Assembly (NCBI GenBank): GCA_025350055.1
Contig: JANXYK010000073.1
Span: forward strand, 1-36,655
Direction: 5' to 3'
From: Gammaproteobacteria bacterium
Lineage (GTDB): Bacteria > Pseudomonadota > Gammaproteobacteria > Steroidobacterales > Steroidobacteraceae
Length of the DNA: 36,655 bases
Both the position numbers and the translations under genes were made by a program. The notes under the pieces were generated by a model, which saw nothing but the letters and a program-made list of their open reading frames with translations, was not told where the DNA came from and did no database searches. Of the stretch, positions 3,853-24,293 are shown piece by piece. Within the stretch, counting starts at the first letter, position 1; every line of letters begins with the position of its first letter.

Positions 3853-3961
3853 GCCTGCCCTTCCCCCACAGCAGTATTCATGTCCAGATCATAGATGGCC
3901 GGCGGCGGTAGCGCGCAGGTATGCAGTGCGTCAGGATTTTCATGCGCTGCTCACGTTTGTA

Positions 3962-3979
3962 TTTATCACACCTGATAAA
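3962..3979. promoter_or_regulatory. Perfect palindrome upstream of phaR, candidate operator
   Basis: TTTATCA (3962-3968), CACC, TGATAAA (3973-3979) is a perfect 7-base inverted repeat in an unusually AT-rich stretch (about 3945-4035) between the divergent ctlX and phaR genes. Its size fits a site for a dimeric regulator. It does not match the FNR/CRP consensus. The regulator is unknown. Confidence 0.4.
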
Positions 3980-4003
3980 CTTAACTTAATGAATACATTA
4001 AAA

Positions 4004-4018
4004 AAATCAGTTTGATTT
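4004..4018. promoter_or_regulatory. Second short palindrome upstream of phaR
   Basis: AAATCA (4004-4009), GTT, TGATTT (4013-4018) is a perfect 6-base inverted repeat 24 bases after the first palindrome. Both contain TCA-TGA half sites, so one regulator could bind both, or this may simply reflect AT-rich composition. Confidence 0.3.
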
Positions 4019-4050
4019 ACCAATGATCAGCAAATTTGTGAGCGGCGCGT

Positions 4051-4080
4051 TTGTGCGCCGCATAGAGCCTGGGGTAGCAT
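4051..4080 (+). promoter_or_regulatory. Candidate phaR promoter with PHA-locus motif
   Basis: TTGTGC (4051-4056) and TAGCAT (4075-4080) with an 18-base spacer look like sigma-70 elements. The block GCATA-n-A-nn-CCTGGG-n-TAG-n-ATG recurs upstream of the phasin gene, and in both cases the -10-like hexamer ends exactly 50 bases before the start codon. The predicted transcript start is near 4087. In known systems PhaR represses itself and the phasin gene, so part of this block may also be a PhaR operator (inference). Confidence 0.5.
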
Positions 4081-4129
4081 GCACCGGCCTTTGTGGCACC
4101 TCATTTCGAGACTACGACCGGAAGCACAC

Positions 4130-4678
4130 ATGCCAGAGCCGCGCGTCATCCGCAAATACGCCAATCGGCGTCTCTACGACGCCACTGCCAGCCGCCACGT
4201 CACCAATGACGATATCCGCCGACTGATCGCGGGTGGAGAGCGCGTGCAGGTGGTCGATGACCGTTCGGGCGAAGACCTGACGCGCACCGTACTGCTGCAG
4301 ATCATCGCCGAGCAGGAACAGTTCGGCGCACCGGTGCTGAGCGTGCAGCTGCTCGAGGGCATCATCCGCTTCTACGGCAATCCGGTGCAGGACCTGCTCT
4401 CGCGTTACCTGGAGCAGAGCCTGGGCACCGTGATGCAGCAGCAGCGCAGCGTGCAGGAACAAATTGCCAAGGCGATGGAAGGCCCGCTGGCGCCGCTCGC
4501 GCCGCTCGCCGAACTCACGCGCCAGAACATGGAAATGTGGAACCGCATGCAGAACTCGATGCTGGCAGCACTGGCGCCGCGCAATGCGCACAAGCCCGGC
4601 TCGCCCCAAGACGATGCGGCCAACGACGCCGGCCCCGGTGCCGAGGGGCCCGCCCCCACCGAACCTCCAAAGCGCTGA
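4130..4678 (+). CDS. phaR: PHA synthesis repressor PhaR
   Basis: PhaR binds DNA and PHA granules; when granules form it leaves its operators and phasin synthesis rises. The 182-residue protein opens with the diagnostic N-terminal DNA-binding domain (RVIRKYANRRLYDATASRHV, then TNDDIRRLIAGGERVQVVDD), followed by the PHB-accumulation domain at about 63-110 (EQFGAPVLSVQLLEGIIRFY). The tail is a helical, Gln/Met-rich stretch and a Pro/Ala/Gly-rich end. I chose the ATG at 4130 because GGAAG lies 5 bases upstream and the family begins here; an upstream ATG at 4079 lies on the predicted promoter and adds unrelated residues. It is followed 11 bases later by the reductase gene. Confidence 0.93.
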   Translation: MPEPRVIRKYANRRLYDATASRHVTNDDIRRLIAGGERVQVVDDRSGEDLTRTVLLQIIAEQEQFGAPVLSVQLLEGIIRFYGNPVQDLLSRYLEQSLGTVMQQQRSVQEQIAKAMEGPLAPLAPLAELTRQNMEMWNRMQNSMLAALAPRNAHKPGSPQDDAANDAGPGAEGPAPTEPPKR

Positions 4679-6019: not shown

Positions 6020-6051
6020 ACCAAGACCCCCTTCTTGTTTGAGCGGACTCG

Positions 6052-6083
6052 ACCCCGGGGGAGCAATTTCCCGGGGTTTTTTT
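6052..6083 (+). terminator. Rho-independent terminator after the phasin gene
   Basis: ACCCCGGG (6052-6059) pairs with CCCGGGGT (6070-6077), followed by a run of T to 6083. It lies 33 bases after the phasin stop and only 15 bases before the phaC ATG. Readthrough, or a phaC promoter inside this region, would be needed to express the synthase, which probably sets a high phasin-to-synthase ratio. Confidence 0.8.
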
Positions 6084-6098
6084 AAGGATGCGCTGAGC

Positions 6099-7853
6099 AT
6101 GAGCAACGCAGTGGCTACGCGACCCAGAACCGAGCGTGCCGGCGAAGATCCGGTGCTGCTGCTGGCGCACAACCTGCGCGCGCAACTGGCGAGTGTCAGC
6201 GGTGGCCTGGCCACCGACGACTACCTGCGCGCCTGGTGGGAGTGGTGGCTCAGCCTCGCCGCGCACCCGACCACACAATGGATGATGCTGCAGGAAGGCC
6301 TGGAGCGCGCCGCCGACAGCTGGCAATTCGCGCTGAGCGCTGCCGCGGGCAAGCCGCTGGCGCACGAACATCCGGATCCGCATTTCAAGGCTGATGGCTG
6401 GAACCAGTTTCCGTACAACGCGCTGGTGCGCAGCTACGGCAACATCGAACAATGGAGCGAGCAGCTGCTGGGCGGCACGGCCGGCATCAGCAGCGAGAAC
6501 ACGCAGCGCCTGGAATTCATGCGTCGCCAGCTGCTCGAGACGCTCTCGCCCGCGCACTACCTCGCCACCAATCCCGAGCTGATCGAGCAGACGCGCGCCG
6601 AAGCAGGCGCGAACCTGCTGCGCGGCTGGCAGCACTGGCTCGAGGATGCGCAGCGCATGCTGGGCGGCGGCGCCGCGCCAGGCACCGAAGCCTTCCGCGT
6701 CGGCGAGCAGCTCGCGATCACACCGGGCAAGGTGGTGATGCGCAATGAACTGATCGAACTGATCCAGTACGCGCCGCAGGGCGCGAGCGTGTATGCCGAG
6801 CCGATCCTGATCACGCCGGCGTGGATCATGAAGTATTACGTGCTCGATCTTTCACCGCACAACTCGCTGGTGAAGTACCTGGTCGAGCAGGGCCACACCG
6901 TGTTCATGATCTCGTGGCGGAATCCCGAGGCGCGCGATCGCGAACTGGGCATGGATGACTACCTGCGCCTTGGCGTGCATGCGGCGCTCGAAACGATCCA
7001 GACCATCGTGCCGGGCCGGCGCATCCACAGCGTGGGCTATTGCATCGGCGGTACGCTGCTGTCGATCGCTGCCGCGCAACTCGCACGCAGTGCCTCGAAT
7101 ATCCTGGCCTCGGTCACGCTGCTGGCGGCACAGACTGATTTCAGCGCACCGGGAGAATTGTCATTGTTCATCACGCCCAGTCAACTGGGCGCGCTCGATG
7201 CGCTGATGCAACGCGACGGCGTGCTGGCGAGCGAGCGCATGGGCGCGGCCTTTGCGCTGCTGCGCTCGAGCGATCTGATCTGGGATCCGGCGATCAAGAC
7301 CTACCTGCGCGGCGAGCGCAGCAAGCTCAACGACCTGATGGCCTGGAACGCGGATGGCACGCGCATGCCCTGCCGCATGCATAGCGAATACCTGAATCGC
7401 CTGTACCTGCACAATGAACTCGCCAACGGCAGCTTCACGATCGATGGCCAGCCGATCGATTTGCGCCGCATCAACGTGCCGATGTTCGTGGTCGGCACCG
7501 AGACCGATCATGTGGCGCCTTGGCCTTCAGTGCTGAAGACCCGCGCGCTGACGCGCTCGGAAGATTTCACCTTCCTGCTCACCAGCGGCGGGCACAACGC
7601 CGGCATCGTCAGCGGCCCCGTGCACCCCAAGCGCCGCCATCGCATCTACCAGTGGAACGACAATCACTCGACCCTGAGCCCGGCCGAGTATGAGCAGGCG
7701 GCGCAGATGCACAGCGGCTCATGGTGGCCGAGCTGGCAAGGCTGGCTGGCCGCGCACTCGAGCAGCGAACAGCAGTCAGCGCCGCAGCTGGGCAACAGTG
7801 CTGCGGGTTACCCGCCGCTGTGCGCCGCGCCCGGCGGCTACGTACACGGCTGA
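6099..7853 (+). CDS. phaC: Class I poly(3-hydroxyalkanoate) synthase
   Basis: PhaC polymerises short-chain 3-hydroxyacyl-CoA into PHA at the granule surface. The 584-residue protein has the N-terminal PhaC domain (about 75-245) and an alpha/beta-hydrolase core. The lipase-like box is GYCIGG with nucleophile Cys315; Asp470 lies in ETDHVAPW and His499 in GGHNAG. These positions nearly match the Cupriavidus necator enzyme (C319, D480, H508), which together with its length and single-subunit form marks class I. Typical family motifs WWEWW and NSLVKYLVEQGHTVFMISW are present. I chose the ATG at 6099, with AAGGA about 10 bases upstream; the longer frame from 6039 would run through the terminator. 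The gene converges on the Calx-beta gene with a 2-base gap. Confidence 0.95.
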   Translation: MSNAVATRPRTERAGEDPVLLLAHNLRAQLASVSGGLATDDYLRAWWEWWLSLAAHPTTQWMMLQEGLERAADSWQFALSAAAGKPLAHEHPDPHFKADGWNQFPYNALVRSYGNIEQWSEQLLGGTAGISSENTQRLEFMRRQLLETLSPAHYLATNPELIEQTRAEAGANLLRGWQHWLEDAQRMLGGGAAPGTEAFRVGEQLAITPGKVVMRNELIELIQYAPQGASVYAEPILITPAWIMKYYVLDLSPHNSLVKYLVEQGHTVFMISWRNPEARDRELGMDDYLRLGVHAALETIQTIVPGRRIHSVGYCIGGTLLSIAAAQLARSASNILASVTLLAAQTDFSAPGELSLFITPSQLGALDALMQRDGVLASERMGAAFALLRSSDLIWDPAIKTYLRGERSKLNDLMAWNADGTRMPCRMHSEYLNRLYLHNELANGSFTIDGQPIDLRRINVPMFVVGTETDHVAPWPSVLKTRALTRSEDFTFLLTSGGHNAGIVSGPVHPKRRHRIYQWNDNHSTLSPAEYEQAAQMHSGSWWPSWQGWLAAHSSSEQQSAPQLGNSAAGYPPLCAAPGGYVHG

Positions 7854-7855
7854 AC

Positions 7856-8728
7856 TCAGCGCGGCAGCAGGAACACTGCCGCGCGCTGTGTGTCGCCGAG
7901 CTGCGCTCCGCCCTCGGGATCACCGATCATCACGTAGAAGAATTCCGTGTGCCGGCGCGCGGGGTTCTTCAGTATCGGCACCGTCAACTGCACGGCACTG
8001 GTACCCGGCGGTATCGACACGCGCTCGGCCATGTGGCCACGGTAATCGGCTCCAGCCTTCGCGCCCGCAGCCTGCGTCCACCACCTGAAGCTTACGGCAC
8101 CGTCGCTGCCATCGAGGCGCGTCACGCTGACCAATGCGCTCTGACCGCCAGGCTGCACAATGAAAGTATCGGCAGCGAGCGTCAGCCGCCCTGGCACAGC
8201 AATGCGCGTTAGCTGCGCCATGCGCAGCGGCGCGGCATTTTCGCGCTCATCCAGTGCCTGCGATGCGCCCACCGCGAGCATGAAGACAACCACCGACATC
8301 AACTGCACGGAGCGCGCTGGCCACCGCCAGGCCGCGTGACGACGCGTCAAAGCCAGTCGCGGCAACGCCAGACGCGTGGGACGCGCCGCTGCGTCGGCCA
8401 GGCTGTCGATGCAACTCTGGTTCGCCGCTTCGAGCTGCGTGAGATCGAACTGCCGCTCGACGTTGGCATGCTCGCTGCCGTGTATGCCGAGCGCGCGACG
8501 CTGGATGCTCTGGCTGATAGTGCGTTGCAGATCGCGCGGCAACTTGCCGCGTCGCTGGTATTGATCGAGCAGCGCCAATGCTTCCCAACTGGCGCGCGGC
8601 ATGGCCGCGCAATGCGCCAGCAGATTTTCAGTCAGTGCATGTGAGCTGCATTCACCGGCGACATAGGCGTCGAGCCGCTGCTGCAGGATGTCGTTGCCCT
8701 TCATCGTAACCAGCGCTGTTGCGCGCAT
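7856..8728 (-). CDS. Single-pass membrane protein with C-terminal Calx-beta-like domain
   Basis: The 290-residue protein has no obvious family match over its N-terminal half, a helical region (ILQQRLDAYVAGE, SWEALALLDQYQRRGKLPRDL) likely to be cytoplasmic. A single hydrophobic segment follows at about 142-158 (VQLMSVVVFMLAVGAS), then a beta-rich C-terminal domain from about 180 resembling Calx-beta: LTLAADTFIVQPGGQSALVS, AGADYRGHMAERVSIPPGTS, VQLTVPILKN. The acidic Ca-binding residues typical of Calx-beta are not clearly conserved. It follows phaE-phaC on the same strand but has its own promoter-like sequence. A second ATG at 8704 is an alternative start. Its presence inside a PHA island is unusual and its role is unknown. 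Confidence 0.7.
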   Translation of the reverse strand: MRATALVTMKGNDILQQRLDAYVAGECSSHALTENLLAHCAAMPRASWEALALLDQYQRRGKLPRDLQRTISQSIQRRALGIHGSEHANVERQFDLTQLEAANQSCIDSLADAAARPTRLALPRLALTRRHAAWRWPARSVQLMSVVVFMLAVGASQALDERENAAPLRMAQLTRIAVPGRLTLAADTFIVQPGGQSALVSVTRLDGSDGAVSFRWWTQAAGAKAGADYRGHMAERVSIPPGTSAVQLTVPILKNPARRHTEFFYVMIGDPEGGAQLGDTQRAAVFLLPR

Positions 8729-8750
8729 CCGTGATTATTCTTGCAGCCAG

Positions 8751-8779
8751 CATATACAACTGCCGCTGCAGGCATTCAA
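8751..8779 (-). promoter_or_regulatory. Candidate sigma-70 promoter for the Calx-beta-like gene
   Basis: Read on the minus strand, TTGAAT (8779-8774) and TATATG (8756-8751) are separated by exactly 17 bases. Transcription would begin near 8744, leaving a leader of about 16 bases before the start at 8728 or 40 before the alternative start at 8704. Confidence 0.45.
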
Positions 8780-8828
8780 TCGTGTGAGGGTCTTATGTAA
8801 ATTGCGGCGCGCGCCGGAGCGCCGTCGC

Positions 8829-9869
8829 TCAGCGTCGCTGCAGCCAGCCAGCGATCGACTGCGGCAATTCGCGCTGCACGCGGCCGCTGACGTACATGCC
8901 GATGTGGCCGACATCCAGGCCGAGCGCCAGGTAGTCGCTGTTGCCCACCAGGCTCTGCATCGCTGTCGATGCGGCCGGTGGCACCAGGTGGTCCTGCTTG
9001 CCGTAGATGTTGAGCACCGGCTGCGTGATGCGACGCAGATCGACCGGTTGGCCGCCGATGCTGAGCGTGCCCTTGAGCAGGCGGTTTTCCTTGTAGAACC
9101 AGTTGCTGAACTCGCGGAACGCGGCACCAGCCTGGTCGGGACTGTCGAAGATCCATTTTTCCATGCGCATGAAATTGTCGGCCTGCGCCTGGCTGCCAGT
9201 GGTGTCGAGCAGGTCGACATATTTCTGCTGCAGCAGGCGGAACGGCATCAGCGAGACGTAGGCGGCGTTCAGCACATCGCCAGGCACCACGCCGTGCGCG
9301 GCCACCAGCGCATCGACGTCGATGCTCTGCACCCAGCGCGAGAGCAGGTTGTCGGGCGTCTGAAAATCGACCGGCGTCACCATCGTGATCAAATTGCGCA
9401 CCCGCTCAGGGTGCAGCGCCGTGTAGCACAGGCTGAAGGTGCCGCCCTGGCAGACACCGAGCAGCGTCGCCGAGGGCAATTGATGTTCGCGCAGCACCTC
9501 CGACAGGCAGCGATCGATGTAACCGTTGATGTAATCGTTCAGATCGAGGTAACGATCGGCGCCGTCGGGATAGCCCCAGTCGATCAGGTAGATGTCGAGA
9601 CCGAGTTCGAGCAGGCGACGGATCAGCGAGCGATCGGGCTGCAGATCCATCATGTACGGGCGATTCACCAGCGCGTACACGATCATGATCGGCGGCAGCT
9701 TGGCGCTCGCCGCCAGCGGTCGGTAGCGATACAGCGTGAGCTTGTCCTCGCTGTAGACGGCGTCTTTCTCGGAGCAGCCGAAAGTGACTTCGGAAGCGGC
9801 CTGCAGTGCCTGCAGGCTCTGCGTCAGCTTGCCCTGCAGCTCGCCCAGTTCCTCAAGCGGACTGCTCAT
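8829..9869 (-). CDS. phaC: Class III PHA synthase catalytic subunit PhaC
   Basis: This 346-residue protein is the short, class III form of PHA synthase, active only as a complex with PhaE. The nucleophile is Cys140 in LLGVCQGG, with Asp293 in YGKQDHLVPP and His322 in DVGHIGMYVS. All three are shifted by nine residues from the Allochromatium vinosum enzyme (C149, D302, H331), which supports the class assignment. Other class III hallmarks are VYALVNRPYMMDLQPDRSLI and DIYLIDWGYPD. The ATG overlaps the phaE stop (ATGA, 9866-9869), so the subunits are probably translationally coupled at similar levels. This second synthase lies only about 1 kb beyond the end of the class I phaC, on the opposite strand. 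Confidence 0.94.
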   Translation of the reverse strand: MSSPLEELGELQGKLTQSLQALQAASEVTFGCSEKDAVYSEDKLTLYRYRPLAASAKLPPIMIVYALVNRPYMMDLQPDRSLIRRLLELGLDIYLIDWGYPDGADRYLDLNDYINGYIDRCLSEVLREHQLPSATLLGVCQGGTFSLCYTALHPERVRNLITMVTPVDFQTPDNLLSRWVQSIDVDALVAAHGVVPGDVLNAAYVSLMPFRLLQQKYVDLLDTTGSQAQADNFMRMEKWIFDSPDQAGAAFREFSNWFYKENRLLKGTLSIGGQPVDLRRITQPVLNIYGKQDHLVPPAASTAMQSLVGNSDYLALGLDVGHIGMYVSGRVQRELPQSIAGWLQRR

Positions 9870-10861
9870 CGCCGCAGCGCTGCCTTCAGCTCGCGCAGTT
9901 GCTGATGAATACTGTTGAGTTCAGCGCGCGTCGGCAGGTCGAACTGTTTGGCCCATTCCTCGAGCAGCTCGCGCTGCCCGCTGCGCAGCTGGCTGAGCGA
10001 GTTGGTAAGCTCGGCCTGCGCCTGCACAAAGGCCGCGCCGCGCGCCGCCTGCGCATAGACCGATTCAGCCGAGTCGACCCACAGGTCATAGACCTCTTTC
10101 ATCGACGCAGGTGCGCCGCCGCTCTTGAGGCGCGGCGCGATGCGCTCGCCCAGTTCGCGCAGCGCTTTGCCGATGATGTCATTCCACTGCCCGCTCACCT
10201 GTAGCTGCGCCTGCGCGCAGCGCATGCCCAGCTGCGCGAGTCGCTGCATCGACTCCTGGCTCTCGCGTGTCGGGCCCAGCGCCGGCATGTTGAATGCCGA
10301 AGCGGCCTGGCCCGGCGCGCCGAAACCCGCCATGCCAATTCCTGGCATGCCAAATCCTGGCAGGCCAAACGCAGGCGCACCGACTCCTGGCGCGCCAAAG
10401 CCCGGCATCCCGAATCCCGGCATCGAGAAATTCGCCATGCCCGGTACAGCAGCTGCGGCCGCGCCAGGATTGAAGGGACTGGTGGCGGCAACACTGGCGG
10501 CACCGAAGGGCGTCGCCGCCCACAGGTTGGCGAACTGCTGCTGCAAACCGCCGAGGCCGTCGGTGAACACGCGCGCGCGCTGCTCGTTGTCGGTACTCGA
10601 GCTGGCGCGGCCCAGCAGTTCCCAGAGCGAGCGTGATACGCCCAGGTACTGCTCGCACTGGCGCAGGAAATGGCGCGCGATGTCATCGGCACCGCCCGCA
10701 GGCCCGCCCGAAGCCGCACTCGGCGCGGCACCCGCCGCAGCGCCAGCCGCAGCACCCGCCTTCGTCCAGGCGTTGCCAAGTTCCGTCCACTGCCGCAGCA
10801 GTTCGGCCTGGGCCTTCTGCATCGCCGCCGCCCAGTCGCCCGTGATCGCTTCAGGTCCCAT
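9866..10861 (-). CDS. phaE: Class III PHA synthase subunit PhaE with elastin-like repeats
   Basis: PhaE is the partner subunit of class III PhaC. The 331-residue protein shows the expected helical N-terminus (AAAMQKAQAELLRQWTELGN), a middle segment with GLGGLQQQFANLW, and the conserved C-terminal part GQWNDIIGKALRELGERIAP, VYDLWVDSAESVYAQAAR and a terminal helix. Two low-complexity stretches are unusual: an Ala/Gly linker at 35-58 and pentapeptide repeats at 147-184 of the form MPGFG/APGVG/LPGFG, like elastin. The ATG at 10861 has GGAGG 5 bases upstream. It overlaps phaC by ATGA. Confidence in PhaE rests on the context and C-terminal motifs. Confidence 0.9.
   Translation of the reverse strand: MGPEAITGDWAAAMQKAQAELLRQWTELGNAWTKAGAAAGAAAGAAPSAASGGPAGGADDIARHFLRQCEQYLGVSRSLWELLGRASSSTDNEQRARVFTDGLGGLQQQFANLWAATPFGAASVAATSPFNPGAAAAAVPGMANFSMPGFGMPGFGAPGVGAPAFGLPGFGMPGIGMAGFGAPGQAASAFNMPALGPTRESQESMQRLAQLGMRCAQAQLQVSGQWNDIIGKALRELGERIAPRLKSGGAPASMKEVYDLWVDSAESVYAQAARGAAFVQAQAELTNSLSQLRSGQRELLEEWAKQFDLPTRAELNSIHQQLRELKAALRR
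10310..10423 (-). repeat. 15-bp tandem repeats encoding elastin-like pentapeptides in PhaE
   Basis: About seven and a half copies of a 15-base unit, diverged from each other (for example GCCAATTCCTGGCAT and GCCAAATCCTGGCAG on the plus strand), encode (M/A/L)-P-G-(F/V/I)-G pentapeptides. The frame is kept throughout. The number of copies may vary between strains by replication slippage. Confidence 0.85.
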
Positions 10862-15587: not shown

Positions 15588-16187
15588 GTGGCTGACGCCC
15601 AGCTTCTGCAATTCAGGATGCGCCCGACACCGGCAGCGCAGCCCGGTGCCAACCCGGTTGCACCCGGGGCCGCAGAGCCCGGCGCCCTGGAGTTCGAGGC
15701 CTTCTACCGCCTGCATGTGGCGCGCGTCTACGCGCTGTGCCTGCGCATGATCGGGCAGCCGGCGCTGGCCGAAGACTGCACCCAGGAATGCTTCATCTCC
15801 GCCTGGAAGGCGCTGGGCGGCTTTCGGGGCCAGAGCAGCCATTCCACCTGGTTGCACCGCATCGCCGTGAACGCGGTGCTGGGGCAGCGCCGGCGTGGCC
15901 AATCCGATCTCGCACGCGCAGCGCTGCCGCTCGATGAGCTGGCCTTTGCGGTCAGCGACGGTTCGCTGCAGGCGAGCTCACAAGCCCACACGCAGGATCT
16001 CGAATCCGCCCTGGCACGACTCCCTCGCGGCGCGCGCGATGTCGTGGTGCTGGTCGGCCTCTACGGCCACAGCCACGAGGAGGCGGCGCAATTGCTCGGC
16101 ATTGCCGAGGGCACGAGCAAGGCGCAGCTGCATCGCGGCCGGCGGCTGCTCGCGCAGCACCTGGGTCTTTCGCAGGAGCAGGCATGA
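15588..16187 (+). CDS. ECF-subfamily RNA polymerase sigma factor (module 1)
   Basis: The 199-residue protein has sigma region 2 at about 37-100 (FYRLHVARVYALCLRMIG, then AEDCTQECFISAWKALGGF and STWLHRIAVNAVL) and region 4 at about 140-193 (ALARLPRGARDVVVLVGLYG, SHEEAAQLLGIAEGTSKAQL). It lacks regions 1 and 3, as expected for ECF factors. The first 30 residues are a Pro/Ala/Gly-rich extension. The start is GTG at 15588; an ATG at 15618 is possible. It overlaps the next gene by ATGA, a layout typical of sigma/anti-sigma pairs. Its target promoters are unknown, but such factors often control their own operon. Confidence 0.9.
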   Translation: MADAQLLQFRMRPTPAAQPGANPVAPGAAEPGALEFEAFYRLHVARVYALCLRMIGQPALAEDCTQECFISAWKALGGFRGQSSHSTWLHRIAVNAVLGQRRRGQSDLARAALPLDELAFAVSDGSLQASSQAHTQDLESALARLPRGARDVVVLVGLYGHSHEEAAQLLGIAEGTSKAQLHRGRRLLAQHLGLSQEQA

Positions 16188-16726
16188 ACAGTCCACGGCA
16201 TGACTCCCTCAATGCGGCACTGGCCAGCCTGCCACTGGAATTTGCGCCGGCGCGCGATCTTTGGCCCGGCATCCAGCAGGCCACGCGCGGCCGGATGCGC
16301 CATCGCTGGCCCGTGGCCATGGCGGCGAGCGTGTCGCTGTTCACGCTGGTTGGCACGCTCTCGTGGTCGGTGTGGCACCACACCGATGGCGAGCCCATGG
16401 CGGCGCAGCCTGTCATCGTGGGCTCGGGCCCGCAGCGACTGGTGAGCTATGAACTGCCGCAGGACTCCGCCTACCAGGCGGCCCGCGGCGCGCTCGAGCG
16501 CACCTTCGAGGAACGCCTGAAGCTGCTGGCCCCCGCCACGCGCGAGCGCGTGCAGCAGGACCTGGCCATCATCAGGAAGGCGAATGCCGATATCCAGGGC
16601 GCGCTGCGCGCCGACCCGGCCAGTCCACTGCTGCTGCAGCTGATGCGCAGCACCTGTCAACAGGAAATCAACCTCTACACCACCGTCACCCATACCACCG
16701 ACACCCTGCTCACGAGGAGAACCTGA
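16184..16726 (+). CDS. Putative membrane anti-sigma factor (module 1)
   Basis: The 180-residue protein has a short cytoplasmic N-terminus (MNSPRHDSLNAALASLPLEF), one transmembrane helix at about 43-63 (WPVAMAASVSLFTLVGTLSW), and a periplasmic helical domain ending in ANADIQGALRADPASPLLLQ, a pattern seen in proteins coupled to ECF sigma genes. No zinc-binding HxxxCxxC is present, so it is not a ZAS-type anti-sigma factor. Its position, ATGA-coupled to the sigma gene, is the main reason for the call. It is followed two bases later by the DUF4097 gene. Confidence 0.65.
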   Translation: MNSPRHDSLNAALASLPLEFAPARDLWPGIQQATRGRMRHRWPVAMAASVSLFTLVGTLSWSVWHHTDGEPMAAQPVIVGSGPQRLVSYELPQDSAYQAARGALERTFEERLKLLAPATRERVQQDLAIIRKANADIQGALRADPASPLLLQLMRSTCQQEINLYTTVTHTTDTLLTRRT

Positions 16727-16728
16727 TC

Positions 16729-17643
16729 ATGAAAGCGCAGATGAACACGCGTCGCGGCACGCGCACTGTCCTGTTGACCGCATTGCTGTGCACGGCCGCA
16801 CTGCCGGCGCTCGCCGCGCTGCGCACGGTCAATGAACACAAGGCCGTTGATGCCAATGGCACGGTCGAGATCATCAATGTGGCCGGCACTGTCGACGTGT
16901 CGCCCTGGGATCAGGCCGAAGTCGCGGTCACCGGCGGCATCGGCGCTCGCGTCGAGCGCGTCGAGGTCACGGGCACTGGTACCCATGTGACGGTGCGCGT
17001 GGTGGTGCCCAACGGCAACTCCTACCACGATGAAGGCGAAGCGCGGCTTAAGATCCAGGTGCCGCGTCACTGCGCGCTAGAAGTCTCGCTGGTGAGCGCT
17101 GACCTGCACGTCACTGGCATCGACGGCGATGCCGAGCTGCAAACGGTGAGCGGCGATATCACCGGCGACACGAGCGGTTCACTGCAGGTCAACACCGTGA
17201 GCGGCGACGTGCGGCTCGAGGCGCGCAACGCGAAGTCGATGCGCGTCAAGACGATCAGCGGCGATGCCACGCTCAACGGCGGCAGTGGCGAGGTGAATGT
17301 CGAATCGGTCAGCGGCGACGCCAACCTCAAGCTCGGCACGCTTAGGCACGCGCACTTTGAGAGCGTCTCGGGGGACCTGCATATCGCCGGCACACTCGAA
17401 GCCGGCGGTCAGCTCGATGCCTCCTCGGTGAGCGGCCATGTGCACCTGAGTTTCGGCGCCGCACCCGATGCGGATATCGACCTGCAGACCTTGAGCGGCG
17501 ACATCAGCAACTGCTTCGGGCCCAAGCCGATCGAACAGCAGTACGGGCCCGGCAGCCGGCTGAATTTCCGCAGCGGCCAGGGCGGCGGCAGGGTGCATGC
17601 CGACACCAAGAGTGGCGATCTGTCGTTGTGCGCGGGTAAGTAA
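16729..17643 (+). CDS. Secreted DUF4097 beta-repeat protein (module 1)
   Basis: The 304-residue protein has a cleavable signal peptide (LLTALLCTAALPALA, mature from about residue 30) and then a chain of short beta-strand repeats marked by TVSGD/SVSGD at roughly every 20-25 residues (LQTVSGDITGD, VNTVSGDVRLE, VKTISGDATLN, VESVSGDANLK, FESVSGDLHIA, LQTLSGDISNC). This is the pattern of DUF4097, predicted to fold as a right-handed beta-solenoid. The function is not established, though the family is often found with ECF sigma/anti-sigma pairs, as here. AGGAG precedes the ATG and only two bases separate it from the anti-sigma gene. It ends near a strong hairpin at 17697-17730. Confidence 0.85.
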   Translation: MKAQMNTRRGTRTVLLTALLCTAALPALAALRTVNEHKAVDANGTVEIINVAGTVDVSPWDQAEVAVTGGIGARVERVEVTGTGTHVTVRVVVPNGNSYHDEGEARLKIQVPRHCALEVSLVSADLHVTGIDGDAELQTVSGDITGDTSGSLQVNTVSGDVRLEARNAKSMRVKTISGDATLNGGSGEVNVESVSGDANLKLGTLRHAHFESVSGDLHIAGTLEAGGQLDASSVSGHVHLSFGAAPDADIDLQTLSGDISNCFGPKPIEQQYGPGSRLNFRSGQGGGRVHADTKSGDLSLCAGK

Positions 17644-17696
17644 CGAGGCGCTGGCAAGCATCAGGCGTCGGCCAGCGACGCCGGCGCAGCCTTAAG

Positions 17697-17730
17697 CAGA
17701 GGCCCGCAAGCGCAAGCCTGCGGGCCTCTG
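17697..17730. terminator. Perfect 12-bp hairpin between convergent genes
   Basis: CAGAGGCCCGCA (17697-17708) and TGCGGGCCTCTG (17719-17730) pair perfectly around a 10-base loop. It lies between the convergent DUF4097 and psiF genes and could stop transcription from both sides, although neither strand has a long U-run. Confidence 0.65.
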
Positions 17731-17755
17731 GCTATTCAGGCATCGACTAAAGCTA

Positions 17756-18067
17756 TCAGGCTCCTGCCGACAGGCAGGTCTTCATGTAGCTCTTGCGGTC
17801 TGCGCCCTTGAGCGCCTTAGTCTTGGCATCGCTCGAGCAGGTCTCCATCTTCTCCTGTTGCGGCGTCATCGTCTTGGCGGGAGCCGCAGCGGCGCCACCA
17901 GCCGACAGGCAGGTCTTCATGAAGCCCTTGCGCGCATCGCCCTTGAGCGCCTGCTCCTTGGCCTGCGCCGAGCAGTTCTTCATCTTGTCGTTTTGGGAAT
18001 TGGCGGCGTTGGCACCGAGCGCCGCGGCACACAGCAGGATCGCGAGTATCGATTGACGTGTGGTCAT
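17756..18067 (-). CDS. psiF: PsiF-repeat periplasmic protein
   Basis: The 103-residue protein has a signal peptide (residues 1-21, LAILLCAAALGANA) followed by two PsiF repeats: MKNCSAQAKEQALKGDARKG with FMKTCLSAG, and METCSSDAKTKALKGADRKS with YMKTCLSAG. Each repeat has two cysteines, presumably disulfide-bonded in the periplasm. In E. coli psiF is phosphate-starvation inducible, but its activity is unknown. AAGGGGG lies close upstream of the ATG. The two repeats are also similar at the DNA level (GACAGGCAGGTCTTCATG occurs twice), which points to internal duplication. I saw no clear Pho box. Confidence 0.88.
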   Translation of the reverse strand: MTTRQSILAILLCAAALGANAANSQNDKMKNCSAQAKEQALKGDARKGFMKTCLSAGGAAAAPAKTMTPQQEKMETCSSDAKTKALKGADRKSYMKTCLSAGA

Positions 18068-18174
18068 GTAGCCCCCTTAAGGCTCAGGAAACGAACGATG
18101 GCATTGTGGGCGTCACGCGCAGGAAGTCGCCTTAATTTTCAGTAATTCCCGCGTATGCACAGGATCTGGCCCGC

Positions 18175-19101
18175 TCAACTGCGCGGCAGCTGCGCGGCGC
18201 GCGGCACCACCACCTGCGCGAGCTGCTCGAAATTGCGCTCCTGCGTGAGATCCATGCCCGCCAGGATCACACCATCGGCGCCAGCCGCGGCCACCTTCGC
18301 CATGTCGGCCAGCAGGGCTTCAGGATCTTCGCGATGCATCATGATCACGGTCTTGTCGATCGCGCTGTAGTCGCGACCCAGACGCTCGCAGTGGTCTTTC
18401 AGCACCGCGAGCTTGGCGCGCAGCGTGTCCGCGTCACCGAAGATATTGCAGGCCTGCGCGTACTGCGCAACCATGCGCAGCGTTTTCTTCTCACCGCTCC
18501 CGCCGATCATGATCGGTGGCCGCGGCCTCGACAGTGGCTGCGGCACGCACAGCGTTTCCTGCAGTTGATAGTGGCGCCCGTGGTACGGGCCATTCTCCGG
18601 CGACCACATCTGCAGCGCGATCTCGAGTGTTTCCTCGAGTCGCTCGAAGCGCTCGCGCAGCGGCGGAAACGCCACGCCCAGAGCCAGATGCTCGCGCTCG
18701 TACCAGGCTGCGCCGAGCCCCAGCCATGCGCGCCCACCCGAAAGCACATCGAGGGTGGTCACGGTTTTCACCAGCACGCCGGGATGGCGATACATCACGC
18801 CCGTGACCAGCGTGCCCAGCCGCACACGCTGCGTGTGTGCAGCAAGGAACGCGAGCACGCTGTAGCCTTCGTGCATGTCGGTTTCGGGCGGCGCGAAATT
18901 CGGTATCTGGAAAAAATGATCCATCACCCAGATCGATGACAGACCCGCTGCTTCGCCGCGCGCCGCGGCTTTGCCCAGCAGCGCGCTAAGCGCCGGTGGC
19001 CCACCCGGATATTCAAATTTGGCGATGGTTATCGAGACATGCATCGGCGGGTGATTATGCGCTTCGCCGCAGTTCGCACGCGGCTGGGTAGAGTTTGACA
19101 T
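18175..19101 (-). CDS. LLM-class flavin-dependent oxidoreductase, F420 type
   Basis: This 308-residue protein has the luciferase-like TIM-barrel pattern: LSSIWVMDHFFQIPNF, LAFLAAHTQRVRLGTLVTGV, RHPGVLVKTVTTLDVLSGGR, LGLGAAWYEREHLALGV and PPIMIGGSGEKKTLRMVAQY. This set is typical of the F420-dependent LLM group, but FMN use cannot be excluded, and no F420 synthesis gene lies in the window. The substrate is unknown. The ATG at 19101 was chosen because AGGA lies 8 bases upstream; the internal ATG at 19044, where homology seems to begin, has no visible ribosome binding site. It is divergent from the fused cytochrome-porin gene and shares its palindrome-rich upstream region. Confidence 0.82.
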   Translation of the reverse strand: MSNSTQPRANCGEAHNHPPMHVSITIAKFEYPGGPPALSALLGKAAARGEAAGLSSIWVMDHFFQIPNFAPPETDMHEGYSVLAFLAAHTQRVRLGTLVTGVMYRHPGVLVKTVTTLDVLSGGRAWLGLGAAWYEREHLALGVAFPPLRERFERLEETLEIALQMWSPENGPYHGRHYQLQETLCVPQPLSRPRPPIMIGGSGEKKTLRMVAQYAQACNIFGDADTLRAKLAVLKDHCERLGRDYSAIDKTVIMMHREDPEALLADMAKVAAAGADGVILAGMDLTQERNFEQLAQVVVPRAAQLPRS

Positions 19102-19175
19102 AACATCGGTCCTGGAGCGATTTCGGCCCGATTGAACCGTGCCCTACCGGTCAGGTACTCACCTCACCAGAGATT

Positions 19176-19220
19176 GTTTGCATTACAAACTAATGCTTGC
19201 ACTGCGCTAAATTTGCAGTG
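19176..19220. promoter_or_regulatory. Cluster of inverted repeats between LLM and Cyc2-like genes
   Basis: Three short perfect inverted repeats sit close together: GTTTG-CATTA-CAAAC (19176-19190), GCATTA-CAAAC-TAATGC (19180-19196, overlapping the first) and CACTGC-N9-GCAGTG (19200-19220). They lie about 75-120 bases upstream of either divergent start, a suitable place for a shared operator. No regulator is identified. A further repeat CCTTA/TAAGG lies at 19283-19301. Confidence 0.35.
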
Positions 19221-19317
19221 TTTCCCACACTCTTCTACCCACTATCCCCCGCTTACAGCAGCCCGCCACCTTGTTATTTTGACCTTAGGGATTTCTTAAG
19301 GTGCATGAGGGTTGGCC

Positions 19318-20682
19318 ATGTCTAGGTCCATCGGTTTTCGGGGCGTCCTGGCGCGTGCGCACTGGTTCGCGTTGCTGGCTGCAGCAGCCTTGCTGTCGTC
19401 GGCTCCCGCCCGTGCCGTGCCCAGCTTTGCCCAGCAGACCGGGATGCCCTGCCAGCAGTGCCACACCACGGCCTACGGGCCGGCACTCACCGACTATGGT
19501 CGGCAGTTCAAACTCAACGGCTACGTGTTCGGCGACAACAAGCCGCTGATGCCGCTCGCGCTGATGGTTCAGGGCGGTTACACCCGCACCAGTGCCGACC
19601 AACCCGCACCGCCGTCACCGCAGTACGGCCTCAACGGGCAGACTTCGCTTGACCAGGTGAGCCTGTTCGTCGCCACGCGCCTGAGCTCGCACCTCGGCCT
19701 CTTTTCACAGGTCACCTATGACGGCAACGCTCATGTCACACACTGGGACAACACGGACTTGCGCTACGCGCGCAGCTTCAACGTGGGCCAGACCGCGCTG
19801 GTCACCGGCATAAGCGTCAACAACAACCCGACGGTCCAGGATCTGTGGAACTCGACTCCCGCCTGGGGATTTCCCTACATCGGCTCGGCGCTGGCACCCA
19901 CGCCCAGTGCCGGACCCTACATCGGCGGCCTGGGTGCTGCGGTGCTGGGAGCGACCGGCTACGTGATGGTGAACAACCGCTACTACCTGGAGCTGGGCGG
20001 TTACCGCGGCGTGTCCAATCATTGGCTCGATAAACTGGGGGTCGGCGCCGACTCCAGCCCTCACTTGAGCGGCCTTGCGCCGTACTGGCGGGCAACCGCC
20101 CAGTTCATCAACGGCCCGCATTCCTATTCATTCGGCACGTTCGGGCTCGACGCGCGGGTGCAGCCGGATCCGACTGCGCCGGAAAAGGATCACTTCACGG
20201 ACTTCGGCTTTGATGCGACCTATCAGTACACCGGACCCACCAAGAGCATTGTCTCGGCCAACGCCTCGCTGATCCATGAGCGCCAGGACCTACAGGCCAC
20301 GCTTGCCGGCGGCGGCGCCGATCGCGCCAGTCAAAGTCTGGACTTCCAGAGCGTCGATCTGGCCTATTCCTACGATCGCACCTGGGTGGCCACGGTCAAT
20401 GAATTCACGACCAGTGGCAGCACCGACGCTACGCTCTACGCCCCCAGCCAGCTCAGCGGCTTCGCCAATGGTTCACCGGACAGCTCTGGCTACCGGCTGC
20501 AACTCGAGTACGTGCCCTTCGGCAAACTCGATTCGCCGGCGCGCCCGTGGCTGAACCTGCGGCTGGGCCTGCAGTACACCAACTACACCAAGTTCAATGG
20601 TGGTAGCAGCAACTACGACGGCGCCGACCGCTCGGCCAGCGACAACAACACCTTGTTCGCGTTTCTCTGGGTCATCATCTAA
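19318..20682 (+). CDS. Fused monoheme cytochrome c - outer-membrane porin (Cyc2-like)
   Basis: The 454-residue protein has a signal peptide (cleavage near APARA/VPSF, residue 33-34), then at once a heme c site CQQCH at residues 45-49 within VPSFAQQTGMPCQQCHT and YGRQFKLNGYVFGD. The remaining 370 residues are a chain of amphipathic, aromatic-flanked beta strands without further CxxCH, ending in FAFLWVII, as expected for an outer-membrane barrel. One heme at the mature N-terminus followed by a barrel is the plan of Cyc2, the iron oxidase of Acidithiobacillus and neutrophilic iron oxidisers; Cyc2 homologues also exist in organisms not known to oxidise iron. The ATG at 19318 has GAGGG 6 bases upstream. 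Azurin follows 16 bases later. Confidence 0.8.
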   Translation: MSRSIGFRGVLARAHWFALLAAAALLSSAPARAVPSFAQQTGMPCQQCHTTAYGPALTDYGRQFKLNGYVFGDNKPLMPLALMVQGGYTRTSADQPAPPSPQYGLNGQTSLDQVSLFVATRLSSHLGLFSQVTYDGNAHVTHWDNTDLRYARSFNVGQTALVTGISVNNNPTVQDLWNSTPAWGFPYIGSALAPTPSAGPYIGGLGAAVLGATGYVMVNNRYYLELGGYRGVSNHWLDKLGVGADSSPHLSGLAPYWRATAQFINGPHSYSFGTFGLDARVQPDPTAPEKDHFTDFGFDATYQYTGPTKSIVSANASLIHERQDLQATLAGGGADRASQSLDFQSVDLAYSYDRTWVATVNEFTTSGSTDATLYAPSQLSGFANGSPDSSGYRLQLEYVPFGKLDSPARPWLNLRLGLQYTNYTKFNGGSSNYDGADRSASDNNTLFAFLWVII

Positions 20683-20698
20683 TCACCGCAGGTAGGCT

Positions 20699-21211
20699 AT
20701 GAAAAACGTAAACCGCGCAACGAGAACCGCAGCCGCCGCGACAGTGCGTTGGCCGCTGGCCGTCGCTTTGCTCGCATTGACGGGCGCCGCGCAGGCGAGC
20801 AACTGCCACCTGAACATCGAAGCCAACGACCTGATGCAGTTCAATGCCCGGGCACTGCAGATCGATCCGGAGTGCAGTGAAATCCAGCTGACGCTCAAGC
20901 ACGTCGGCAAGCAGCCCGCGCATGTGCTCGGCCACGACTGGGTGCTGGCGCGCACCTCTGATGTAGCAGCCCTGGCCAATGCCGGCATTGCCGCCGGCCT
21001 CGACAAGGGCTACCTCCCGGCGGGCGACCACCGCATCATTGCGGCCACCAAGGTGGTCGGGGGCGGTGAGGAGACCACCATCAGCTTCAACGCCGCGGCG
21101 CTGGTGCCAGGCGTTGATTACAGCTATTTCTGCTCGTACCCGGGCCACTCGACCTTCATGCGCGGCCGCGTGATGCTGGCCGACAAGGCCAAGCTGGCGG
21201 TCAACCGCTAG
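20699..21211 (+). CDS. azu: Azurin, periplasmic type 1 copper protein
   Basis: Azurin carries single electrons in the periplasm. The 170-residue precursor has a signal peptide cleaved near AQAS (residues 31-34), after which CHLNIEANDLMQFN matches azurin's N-terminus. Copper ligands are all present: His79 in LGHDWV, Cys145 and His150 in FCSYPGHSTF, and axial Met154, with the Gly78 carbonyl. Cys36 and Cys59 should form the usual disulfide. The gene follows the Cyc2-like gene by 16 bases and is closed by a hairpin, so the two are very probably one transcript. This suggests azurin accepts electrons from, or gives them to, the outer-membrane cytochrome, as rusticyanin does with Cyc2 in Acidithiobacillus (inference). 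Confidence 0.95.
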   Translation: MKNVNRATRTAAAATVRWPLAVALLALTGAAQASNCHLNIEANDLMQFNARALQIDPECSEIQLTLKHVGKQPAHVLGHDWVLARTSDVAALANAGIAAGLDKGYLPAGDHRIIAATKVVGGGEETTISFNAAALVPGVDYSYFCSYPGHSTFMRGRVMLADKAKLAVNR

Positions 21212-21233
21212 TCGCCGCGCCCCGCCTTGCATC

Positions 21234-21265
21234 CAGGGCCCCGGAATTGGGTTTCCGGGGCCCTG
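21234..21265 (+). terminator. Perfect 13-bp hairpin after azurin
   Basis: CAGGGCCCCGGAA (21234-21246) and TTCCGGGGCCCTG (21253-21265) pair perfectly around TTGGGT, starting 22 bases after the azurin stop. There is no U-run, but the stem is very stable and probably ends the Cyc2-like/azurin transcript before the ECF gene. Confidence 0.65.
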
Positions 21266-21384
21266 CTGTCATAATTCCCTAAGATTTCCGCCAGGCCACG
21301 CTGATGGCTTAGGCTCTGCTGCGCCCGCACGGCTGCCGGCCCCGGGGCGTCATTTTTCTGCAACTTTTCCTGCAGGCGCGCGTT

Positions 21385-21999
21385 GTGCACTTAACAGATG
21401 ACACCGCAGTGCAAACCCCCACGCAGGACAGCCCCAGCCCGGCCGAATTCACCACTTTTATGCGCACCTACCAGAACATGGTCTATTCCACCGCTGCGCG
21501 CTTAACCTGCGATCCGGCGCAGGCGGAGGATATTTCGCAGGAAGTGTTCCTACGGGCGCATCGCGGCTTCGCTCAGTTGCGCGGCAATCCGCGCGCCGCA
21601 GGCTGGCTCAAGACCGTCGCCACCAATCTCACGCTCACGCACCTCACGCGCTATCGCAAGCGCTGGGTGTTCTTCTCGCAGATGCACAATGACGACGACG
21701 GTGCGGACGATGCGGTGCTCGATTTCCCGTCCGGTGAGTCCGTGGTCGCGGATGTCGAAGCCGACCAGCGCCAGGGGGTGATCGAGGAAGCCCTGCAGCG
21801 TCTGCCCGAACACCAGCGCGTGCCACTGGTGCTGTTTCATTTCGAAGAGCTGCCTTACGAAGAGATCGCCACGCGCCTGCGTGTCTCGCTGCCGAAGGTG
21901 AAGACCGACATCCATCGTGCCCGCGCTGCACTTGCGCGCGTACTCGCGCAGCGCGGCATCGATATCACCGAACTCGAATCTTCGAGGGAACCCTCATGA
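21385..21999 (+). CDS. ECF-subfamily RNA polymerase sigma factor (module 2)
   Basis: The 204-residue protein has region 2 at about 22-90 (FTTFMRTYQNMVYSTAARLT, then AEDISQEVFLRAHRGFAQLR and AAGWLKTVATNLTLTHLTRY) and region 4 at about 135-190 (ALQRLPEHQRVPLVLFHFEE, YEEIATRLRVSLPKVKTDIH). An acidic insertion between the regions (NDDDGADDAVLDFPSGE) is notable. The start is probably GTG at 21385; a second GTG at 21409 is possible. It overlaps the following gene by ATGA. It lies 173 bases after azurin behind a hairpin, so it is probably a separate unit. Confidence 0.9.
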   Translation: MHLTDDTAVQTPTQDSPSPAEFTTFMRTYQNMVYSTAARLTCDPAQAEDISQEVFLRAHRGFAQLRGNPRAAGWLKTVATNLTLTHLTRYRKRWVFFSQMHNDDDGADDAVLDFPSGESVVADVEADQRQGVIEEALQRLPEHQRVPLVLFHFEELPYEEIATRLRVSLPKVKTDIHRARAALARVLAQRGIDITELESSREPS

Positions 22000-22478
22000 A
22001 CACACCACAGAACGATGCCGAGCGCCTGGAGCGACAGGTACACGCCGCACTGCGAAGGCTCCCGCCGCTGAGTGCGCCCTCGACGCTCGAGTCGCGCGTG
22101 CTGCGCGAGCTGGTGCGACGCGAAGCGCGCCCCTGGTGGCGCCAGGGTTTTGGCCGCTGGCCGCTGGCGGCGCGGCTGCTGTTCGTGCCGCTGTCGGCGG
22201 GCTTCGTCAAGCTGGCCTTCCTCAGCGTGGGCACTTTCGGTTCGATCGTCGACACCGCACAGCGCACCACGGCGCTGGGGTCGGTCGAGAACCGGTGGCA
22301 GACGTTGAGCAACATGTTCCAGACCATGCGCACCGTCGGCTCCCTCATCATGCAGAACGTGCCCCAGGTCTGGGTCTATGGTCTGGTGGGCTTCGGCCTG
22401 CTGCTCTACGTCTCGTTGTTCGGCATCGGTGCCGCCGCCTTCCGCTCACTCGTTGTTACACCCAATACTGCCCGGTAG
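21996..22478 (+). CDS. Putative membrane anti-sigma partner (module 2)
   Basis: The 160-residue protein begins with a charged cytoplasmic segment (NDAERLERQVHAALRRLPPL, then TLESRVLRELVRREARPWWR), followed by a hydrophobic segment at about 58-82 (ARLLFVPLSAGFVKLAFLSV) and a clear C-terminal transmembrane helix (WVYGLVGFGLLLYVSLFGIG). No zinc motif is present. Coupling to the sigma gene by ATGA and the N-terminal pattern common in sigma-linked membrane proteins suggest an anti-sigma role, but no direct motif proves it. It is followed 6 bases later by the bactofilin-like/RDD gene. Confidence 0.6.
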   Translation: MNTPQNDAERLERQVHAALRRLPPLSAPSTLESRVLRELVRREARPWWRQGFGRWPLAARLLFVPLSAGFVKLAFLSVGTFGSIVDTAQRTTALGSVENRWQTLSNMFQTMRTVGSLIMQNVPQVWVYGLVGFGLLLYVSLFGIGAAAFRSLVVTPNTAR

Positions 22479-22484
22479 TGATTT

Positions 22485-24293
22485 ATGAACAAGACATCCA
22501 CACTCCTGCTCTCCTCGCTCGCTGGCCTGCTGCTGTTTAGCGCGCCGCGACACGTAGCAGCCGACGAAGCCACTGCGTCCGCGCCCGCGCCAGTCGAAGC
22601 CGCTGCTGCGCCTTCGGTTGCAGCACCGCCGGCTGCGCCCACGACCGACGAGAAGGTCGCCGAAAAGGTGCATGCCAAGGTCAAGTCGCTGACCGAGAAG
22701 ATCGAAGACAAGCTGCACAAGAAGATCACCATCGCCGCCACGGCCAAGATGTCGGACCAGAGCTCTGACAAGGCGGATGCCGCCGATGAGGCTGACGCCG
22801 CCTCGCACCACCACCACAACGCCGTCGTCTCCATCGGGCACGACTCGCATCTGCCGGCCGACGGCCACGCGGATGCGGTCGTCTCGGTGCTCGGCTCTTC
22901 GACCAGTGAAGGCGAAGTCGACGATGCGGTCGTCTCCATCTTCGGCGATACCAGGGTGACAGGCCCAGTGGGTGATACCGCTGTTGCGGTGCTGGGCAAC
23001 ACCTACGTCGACAGCACCGTGAAAGGTCAAGTCGTTGCCGTGATGGGTGATGTCGAGCTGGGCCCGCATGCGGATGTCGCGGGCGACATCGTGGTCGTCG
23101 GCGGCACGCTCAAGCGCGATCCGGCGGCCGTCGTGCGCGGTGATGTGAACAACGTGGTGATGTTCGGGCCCGGTGGCCACCTCGAGTGGCTGCACCAGTG
23201 GGCGCAGCAGTGCCTGTATTACGGCCGCCCGCTGGCGCTGGCTCCGGGGTTGGGCTGGGCCTGGGGCGTCGCGCTGTGCTTCCTCGGCCTGTACCTGCTA
23301 TTCGCGCTGCTGTTCCCGAAGGCGGTCGAGCAGTGCACGCGCACGATGGAAGAGCAGCCCGGTCGCTCGGTGATTGCCGCGATACTGTCGGTATTCGCCA
23401 CACCGATCGTGTTCGTGCTGCTGTGCGTAACGGTGATCGGCATCGTGCTGGTGCCGTTCCTGGTGATGGGCCTGTTCCTGGCCGTGCTGTTCGGCAAGGC
23501 CGTGGTATTGGCCTGGATCGGACGACGCGTGCTCGCGATCGGTGGCGAAGGCCGCCAGCATCCGCCGGTGCTCGCGGTATTGATCGGCGGCATCGTAGTG
23601 CTGGCGCTGTACCTGGTGCCCTTCCTCGGCTTCGTGATCTACAAGGGCCTCGACATCCTGGGGTTGGGCATCGTGGTCTACACGCTGATCAGCAGCTCGC
23701 GCGCTGCCCGCGAAACGGCGGCCAAATACAAAGCCGCGAGCCTGCCCGGCGGTACGACCGCCGCAGGCGCTGGCGCGGCCGCCGCCGCCGCGTTCGAAGG
23801 CAGCGCGTCAACGTCCGCTGCAGCGCCCGGGGTCGATGCGGCGCCCGCCGCGCAGCCTGCGGCGCAGGCGGCACCCGCTCCCGCCATGCCCGTGGCCGAT
23901 GCCACGATGGAGCGCGCCGGCTTCTGGATCCGCACGGCCGCGCTGCTGCTCGATATCATCCTGATCGCGATCGTCGGTTCGCTGCTGCCCTTCGGCCATA
24001 GCGACAGCCACCACGTGAGCCTGCTGCTGCTCGCGCTCTACGGCGCGGTGATGTGGAAGTACAAGGGCACCACCATCGGCGGCGTCATCTGCCACCTGCG
24101 CGTGGTGCGGCTCGATGGTCGCGCCATCGACTGGCCGACCGCTGCGGTGCGCGCGCTCGGTTGCTTTCTGTCGCTGGCGGTCGCGGGCCTCGGGTTCCTG
24201 TGGGTGGTGTTCGATCCGGAACGCCAGTCATGGCACGACAAGATCGCCGGCACGGTGGTGGTGCGCGTACCCAAGGGCACGCCGCTGGTCTAG
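22485..24293 (+). CDS. Bactofilin-like repeat protein fused to membrane and RDD domains (module 2)
   Basis: This 602-residue protein combines unusual parts. There is a signal-like start (residues 1-26), an Ala/Pro linker, a charged helix (55-85), and a His-Asp-rich beta-repeat region at about 112-228 (AVVSVLGSST, AVVSIFGDTRVTG, AVAVLGNTYVDS, VVAVMGDVELG, IVVVGGTLKRD), which resembles bactofilin/polymer-forming repeats. Transmembrane helices follow at about 255-278, 295-348 and 362-402, then an Ala/Pro linker (420-470). An RDD domain fills 475-597, with Arg477, Asp490 and DPERQSWHDKIAGT. RDD proteins are membrane proteins of varied, often transport-related, role. Its stop shares CTAG (24290-24293) with the convergent GumN-like gene. 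Confidence 0.8.
   Translation: MNKTSTLLLSSLAGLLLFSAPRHVAADEATASAPAPVEAAAAPSVAAPPAAPTTDEKVAEKVHAKVKSLTEKIEDKLHKKITIAATAKMSDQSSDKADAADEADAASHHHHNAVVSIGHDSHLPADGHADAVVSVLGSSTSEGEVDDAVVSIFGDTRVTGPVGDTAVAVLGNTYVDSTVKGQVVAVMGDVELGPHADVAGDIVVVGGTLKRDPAAVVRGDVNNVVMFGPGGHLEWLHQWAQQCLYYGRPLALAPGLGWAWGVALCFLGLYLLFALLFPKAVEQCTRTMEEQPGRSVIAAILSVFATPIVFVLLCVTVIGIVLVPFLVMGLFLAVLFGKAVVLAWIGRRVLAIGGEGRQHPPVLAVLIGGIVVLALYLVPFLGFVIYKGLDILGLGIVVYTLISSSRAARETAAKYKAASLPGGTTAAGAGAAAAAAFEGSASTSAAAPGVDAAPAAQPAAQAAPAPAMPVADATMERAGFWIRTAALLLDIILIAIVGSLLPFGHSDSHHVSLLLLALYGAVMWKYKGTTIGGVICHLRVVRLDGRAIDWPTAAVRALGCFLSLAVAGLGFLWVVFDPERQSWHDKIAGTVVVRVPKGTPLV

Follow-up and report, generated by a model that had tools for sequence, protein, structure and literature searches.

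What does a bacterium do with a gene for a fused cytochrome-porin that is followed at once by a gene for azurin? The question is raised by contig JANXYK010000073.1 of assembly GCA_025350055.1, a gammaproteobacterium of the family Steroidobacteraceae, whose 36,655 nucleotides are referred to here as the window. We consider it probable, at roughly 70%, that the two proteins form an outer-membrane electron-entry conduit with azurin as the periplasmic partner. The coordinates and the description of the locus given in an initial annotation made from the sequence hold. The parts of the locus are:

19318..20682, forward strand, Cyc2-related fused cytochrome-porin of 454 amino acids (open reading frame and translation)
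19318..19416, forward strand, signal peptide, residues 1-33, cleavage ARA/VPS (read by eye)
19450..19464, forward strand, single heme c site CQQCH, residues 45-49 (sequence)
19555..20676, forward strand, predicted 16-stranded barrel, residues 80-453 (low-confidence model, porin matches)
20690..20696, forward strand, AGGTAGG, resembling a ribosome-binding site, 5' of azurin (sequence)
20699..21211, forward strand, azurin of 170 amino acids including the signal peptide (TIGR02695; PDB azurins)
20933..20935, forward strand, copper ligand H79 (alignment to PDB azurins)
21131..21160, forward strand, copper loop C145-H150-M154 (alignment to PDB azurins)
21234..21265, forward strand, 13-bp GC-rich hairpin 3' of azurin, candidate transcript end (sequence)

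A set of 217 genomes of the family was searched in full with a seven-member profile. Some match was present in 93 genomes, and 32 of these reached at least 446 bits, the threshold for the group of the window protein. Azurin is encoded by the next gene on the same strand in 25 of the 32 genomes. Twenty-two group members were included in trees and formed one clade; L160-L166 are in no tree and were placed in the group by their profile scores. The pair is conserved across six genus codes and in several genomic contexts. Its flanks vary: a gene for an extracytoplasmic function (ECF) sigma factor lies downstream in six loci, four others share a different upstream block, and outside the pair the stretches taken from G008 and G016 (20.0 and 15.9 kb) contained no open reading frame with a match in the window or in the other loci. 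Since the flanking genes are not conserved, the pair is a unit of its own, and its conservation argues for a shared function of porin and azurin; the counts are not independent events, because the genomes are related. Within genus g1 (15 genomes), a single azurin match, above the cut-off, is present in each of the seven porin-bearing genomes, while the eight without it have none above the cut-off and one weak match.

The azurin gene begins 16 bases after the cytochrome-porin gene, and this spacing holds the AGGTAGG element. Its product matches TIGR02695 over the full length (163.4 bits; cut-off, 105.1) and aligns with azurins in PDB (best E 2.3e-37). In the alignment with these azurins, G78, H79, C145, H150, and M154 take the positions of the five ligands of a type I copper site (Gly, His, Cys, His, and Met). 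The earlier description of an azurin with all copper ligands, 16 bases behind the porin and followed by a hairpin, is borne out. The hairpin is without a U-run and was not called by the terminator scan, and a sigma-70 promoter scan found nothing.

A further argument comes from the history of the porin body. For G002 and G004, the trees of the two proteins differ: the porins fall with the G016 porin (support 100/99), the azurins with those from G001 and G013. A comparison of G001 with G004 gives 55% protein identity for the porin and 91% for azurin and the ECF sigma factor. At the DNA level, in 200-base bins, identity is 58-66% in most of the porin body, 80% at the signal-peptide end of the porin, and 81-89% in azurin; elsewhere in the flanks it is mostly 77-89%, with low spots of 57-70% both upstream and in the gene for an RDD-domain protein. 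On the simplest reading, members of the azurin-paired group have probably swapped the porin body and retained their azurin, and such recombination would support the link between the two proteins. The azurin tree is poorly resolved and offers no proof of co-divergence. The apparent gene-internal recombination at this outer-membrane protein, with a divergent allele of the porin body, can be seen at 8400-9500 of L028 against L033 (G001/G004) and also in G002.

The protein had initially been called Cyc2-like. None of the families in Pfam, NCBIfam or PHROGs matches the 454-residue sequence. Both Cys and the His of its heme site are invariant in 48 aligned sequences. A 48-sequence profile detects 12 proteins of family f220 (99.3% probability), the similarity being confined to its first 125 columns, and in the 97-row tree these proteins are set off by very long branches, of 2.67 and 2.45 changes per column. 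Family f220 is presumably Mariprofundaceae, as judged from a motif and from one match in most genomes. Our trees (69, 97, and 48 rows) include no characterised Cyc2. The 69-row tree omitted L015, L020, L021, L036, L060, L064, L065, L092, L097, L098, and L099 as fragmentary, disrupted or very partial; for L015 the omission was needless, and the 97-row tree includes it.

The Cyc2 consensus of Keffer et al. 2021 has AXPXFAR[Q/K][T/Y] before CXXCH and PXL four residues after it (PMC8406198). The N-terminus of the window protein, AVPSFAQQTGMPCQQCHTTAYGPAL, reads AVPSFAQQT at this place, with Q for the R of FAR, and the P of its PxL is the sixth residue after the heme His (HTTAYGPAL), not the fourth. 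Among 24 family loci (L041-L064), the exact PXFAR[Q/K][T/Y] occurs in six; position +6 after CXXCH is P in 22 and V in two, and P at +4 occurs in none. Other marks of Cyc2 are a single CXXCH in a protein of at least 365 amino acids, both found here, and a fused beta-barrel of 16 strands, found here in the low-confidence model. The protein resembles Cyc2 of Mariprofundus PV-1 and Acidithiobacillus and Cyt572 of Leptospirillum in its signal peptide, one N-terminal CxxCH, a length above 365 residues, and the predicted barrel, and its group has N-terminal profile homology to the probable Mariprofundaceae Cyc2. It differs in FAQQT for FAR[Q/K][T/Y], in the position of PxL, in its azurin partner, and in that the profile match ends after column 125. 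Cyc2 in the strict sense was rejected because of FAQ for FAR and PxL at +6 instead of +4; in view of these two departures and of the very distant f220 proteins, the protein was not filed as Cyc2. It is Cyc2-related and, as judged from its sequence, built like Cyc2.

A homologue of the window protein is encoded in the same genome (G000:C19:48577-49956; 41% identity over residues 19-452, E 2.1e-67). Unlike the window protein, this paralogue has the canonical FARQT/PEL motif and is followed by a gene for a diheme cytochrome c, which matches PF00034 in two stretches. Its N-terminus, AVPSFARQTGMACEACHTLYPEL, fits the consensus of Keffer et al. 2021 (PMC8406198). Similarity beyond CxxCH is therefore present over nearly the full length, and the name Cyc2-like stands in the sense of Cyc2-related, not of strict Cyc2. 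With two differently partnered homologues in one genome, the choice of carrier could be tied to donor or oxygen conditions. Within G000:C19:41000-57000 (L026 6913-8993), the end of the paralogue gene overlaps the start of the diheme cytochrome c gene by 4 bases, if the first start codon is used.

The place next to the porin is occupied by different carriers in different lineages. In the 48-row tree, the azurin-linked porins make up 19 rows of a single 22-row clade (support 100/99); the plastocyanin-linked porins are one clade of four (100/99); and nine porins linked to monoheme cytochromes lie within one clade of 11 (99/97). These three clades belong to a larger one of 40 rows (100/98), from which eight canonical-type proteins are separate. 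Five partner labels require eight changes on this tree against a mean of 26.0 after shuffling (as low in none of 200 shuffles). The recognised partner is a small electron carrier, the kind of which tracks the porin lineage. Plastocyanin-type cupredoxins are next in L066 and L067 of the same family and in L135 and L140 of other families of the phylum, and the sampled family relatives of the own-genome paralogue have mostly a diheme cytochrome c next. Homologues were also found in nine plasmid records, seven of which were examined. A c-type cytochrome is encoded within about 500 bases downstream in six of these loci, and the seventh (Paraburkholderia) has one about 2 kb upstream; azurin is absent from all seven. 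The Caballeronia plasmid locus has a gene for a high-potential iron-sulfur protein (HiPIP) upstream as well. Four relatives lie in named contigs, three of them from metagenome-assembled genomes of uncultured Gammaproteobacteria and one from that of a betaproteobacterium. The proposal that azurin takes the place of rusticyanin is a fair functional analogy, made more precise by the relatives: the place is often held by cytochrome c, in four cases by a plastocyanin-type cupredoxin, and elsewhere by no recognised carrier. In L072, a more distant member, a gene about 420 bases downstream looks by eye like a multicopper oxidase.

In the proposed conduit, the barrel would reside in the outer membrane, with the single N-terminal heme c inside it or at its periplasmic mouth, by analogy with Cyc2. 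The heme would receive single electrons from a small donor, either extracellular or accessible through the pore, and pass them to periplasmic azurin, from which they would enter the respiratory chain. Azurin would be the fitting copper carrier at near-neutral pH, in the way that rusticyanin is suited to pH 2. Literature values for other proteins are +208 mV for Cyc2 of strain PV-1 (PMC8406198), and +315 and +667 mV for Pseudomonas aeruginosa azurin and for rusticyanin (PMC11881046); with the first two, the hand-over would be downhill. We infer the localisation, the direction of flow, the electron transfer to azurin, and the co-transcription of the pair. The donor is the least certain part, and Fe(II) at near-neutral pH is the leading candidate, though no more than plausible. 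The electron transfer across the outer membrane proposed in the initial annotation is supported in part, by the Cyc2-related porin, predicted barrel, azurin partner, and conserved pair; strict Cyc2 and iron as the donor are not supported as stated.

L166, a group member without azurin (2884-4227, reverse strand), is convergent with a gene resembling the FTR1 iron permease, a single hint toward iron. The product of that gene matches PF03239 with 69.9 bits over residues 10-191 of 447, and its C-terminal half has no Pfam match. The window also encodes, at 6039-10861, a PhaC-type polyhydroxyalkanoate (PHA) polymerase and PHA synthase subunit E domains, fitting a storage-forming heterotroph.

Several observations weigh against this conduit. 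The model of the cytochrome-porin has 16 predicted strands and matches porins, so that the barrel claimed earlier is indeed predicted; its confidence is low (mean predicted local distance difference test score 48.2), and the heme segment is not resolved in it. Autocorrelation of hydrophobicity revealed no significant two-residue periodicity, hence no barrel signal, and that test alone gives the barrel no support. A sequence search of PDB, with the single protein and with the 48-row profile, found no porin, the matches being at chance level. Seven of the 32 group genomes lack azurin as the next gene: L054 and L064 run into the contig end, while L051, L063, L065, L165, and L166 show no adjoining azurin along the 500 to 1,497 downstream bases available. 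Eight rows in the clade of 40 lack a directly following carrier gene (in L054 the contig ends; L133 has cytochrome c two genes on), no recognised carrier stands beside the porin in 27 of the 85 non-f220 rows of the 97-row tree, and a c-type cytochrome is present in none of the 12 f220 loci (497-789 bases seen downstream). Seven genomes of the family have azurin and lack this porin, so that azurin is not dedicated to this role. Finally, no RuBisCO match was found in the genome; together with its two heme-copper oxidase matches, this means that the electrons would supplement organotrophic respiration.

The special case of the conduit in which dissolved Fe(II) is oxidised for energy, with azurin replacing rusticyanin or Cyc1 in a strict Cyc2 pathway, has odds that overlap with those of the conduit as a whole and is doubtful. 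The homology to Cyc2, the canonical-motif paralogue, the neighbouring FTR1-type gene in one group member, and a literature azurin potential that suits neutral pH agree with it; the two departures from the Cyc2 sequence, the very long branches to the probable Mariprofundaceae Cyc2, and the missing RuBisCO match do not, although organotrophic use of Fe(II) would not need RuBisCO. The direction of flow is not fixed by sequence, and the carrier partners are presumably reversible, so that electrons might instead pass from azurin through the barrel heme to an extracellular acceptor or as a disposal of excess electrons. This is unlikely, since the +315 mV reported for azurin would make reduction of many outside acceptors uphill and the characterised Cyc2 proteins oxidise iron (PMC8406198).

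The seven genomes with azurin and without porin would suit an azurin that serves some other pathway, for example in the reduction of nitrite or the handling of copper, and merely shares an operon with a porin-cytochrome acting as a sensor or channel. Iron sensing by Cyc2 has been proposed (PMC12016527), and the genome has a cytochrome-d1 domain match above the cut-off (36.8 against 25.5 bits). This match spans only 79 of 368 positions and was therefore not taken for NirS, and the NirK match is far below its cut-off (36.2 against 296.3 bits); a role of azurin in denitrification was rejected on these grounds. The linkage in 25 of 32 genomes and the electron carriers recognised at the same place in relatives make any such separate pathway improbable. 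Two other cupredoxins were found in the genome with PF00127, a search that is not exhaustive because it missed the window azurin itself. Coincidental adjacency with no functional link is strongly disfavoured and would be very surprising: it can draw on the azurin-less exceptions and on the relatedness of the genomes, as against conservation across the genus codes and contexts. With azurin adjoining in 25 of 32 group genomes, chance was rejected.

Among known systems, the rus operon of Acidithiobacillus ferrooxidans, with Cyc2, Cyc1, rusticyanin, and aa3 oxidase, likewise encodes an outer-membrane cytochrome-porin together with a type I copper protein (PMC10654088). In contrast, the window pair is a free-standing two-gene unit with no adjoining oxidase or Cyc1 gene. 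Where the rus operon has cyc1, cox genes, and rusticyanin beside cyc2, the genes that follow the porin here encode azurin and an ECF sigma factor and, behind these, a protein with a weak anti-sigma match and one with an RDD domain, and the literature potential of azurin (about +0.3 V) differs from that of rusticyanin (about +0.67 V). As a member of TIGR02695, the azurin is ordinary in its full-length match and ligands and differs in being encoded beside a cytochrome-porin. Interchangeable modules behind Cyc2, including periplasmic cytochromes, were proposed for Zetaproteobacteria (McAllister 2020; PMC7029218); among the porins compared here, the exchange reaches copper proteins and can be read from gene pairs. 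A metagenome-assembled genome of the Steroidobacteraceae has been marked for Fe(II) oxidation (PMC8357290). Among the literature matches listed, no title or abstract opening concerned a cytochrome-porin-azurin pair; most subscription papers and all bioRxiv preprints lay outside this scope.

We tentatively propose, at a little short of even odds, that a cytochrome-porin clade distinct from canonical-motif Cyc2, mostly with CH-x3-[F/Y]-G-P-x-L, represents portable two-gene electron-entry modules, the carrier of which has been swapped in evolution among cytochrome c, plastocyanin-type cupredoxin, and azurin. The azurin version, in this family, would provide heterotroph-like bacteria with an equivalent of the Cyc2-rusticyanin route at near-neutral pH, beside a second route of Cyc2 and diheme cytochrome in the same cell. 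To our knowledge, the periplasmic exit of electrons from Cyc2 is poorly defined outside Acidithiobacillus. Also, cyc2-like genes whose function is open occur in organisms not known as iron oxidisers (PMC8406198). A conserved pair with azurin, a well-studied and easily purified acceptor, would make both the electron exit from Cyc2 and the function of cyc2-like genes testable in vitro by the blue colour.

Some minor observations concern the neighbourhood of the pair. In L060, the azurin-paired porin gene has an in-frame TAG, which may indicate a pseudogene or a sequencing error. In the window (15588-24293), the pair is flanked by two ECF sigma factor genes, an arrangement conserved in part of the genus only; the second is followed by a weak anti-sigma match and the RDD-domain protein, and a DUF4097 protein is encoded upstream of the pair. 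The cluster of ECF sigma and anti-sigma factors was rejected as a part of the module, since in G008 and G016 the pair occurs in the absence of these genes. A gene on the reverse strand (18175-19101), oriented divergently to that of the porin, encodes an F420-dependent LLM-class oxidoreductase, which matches TIGR03560 with 302.4 bits, above the cut-off.
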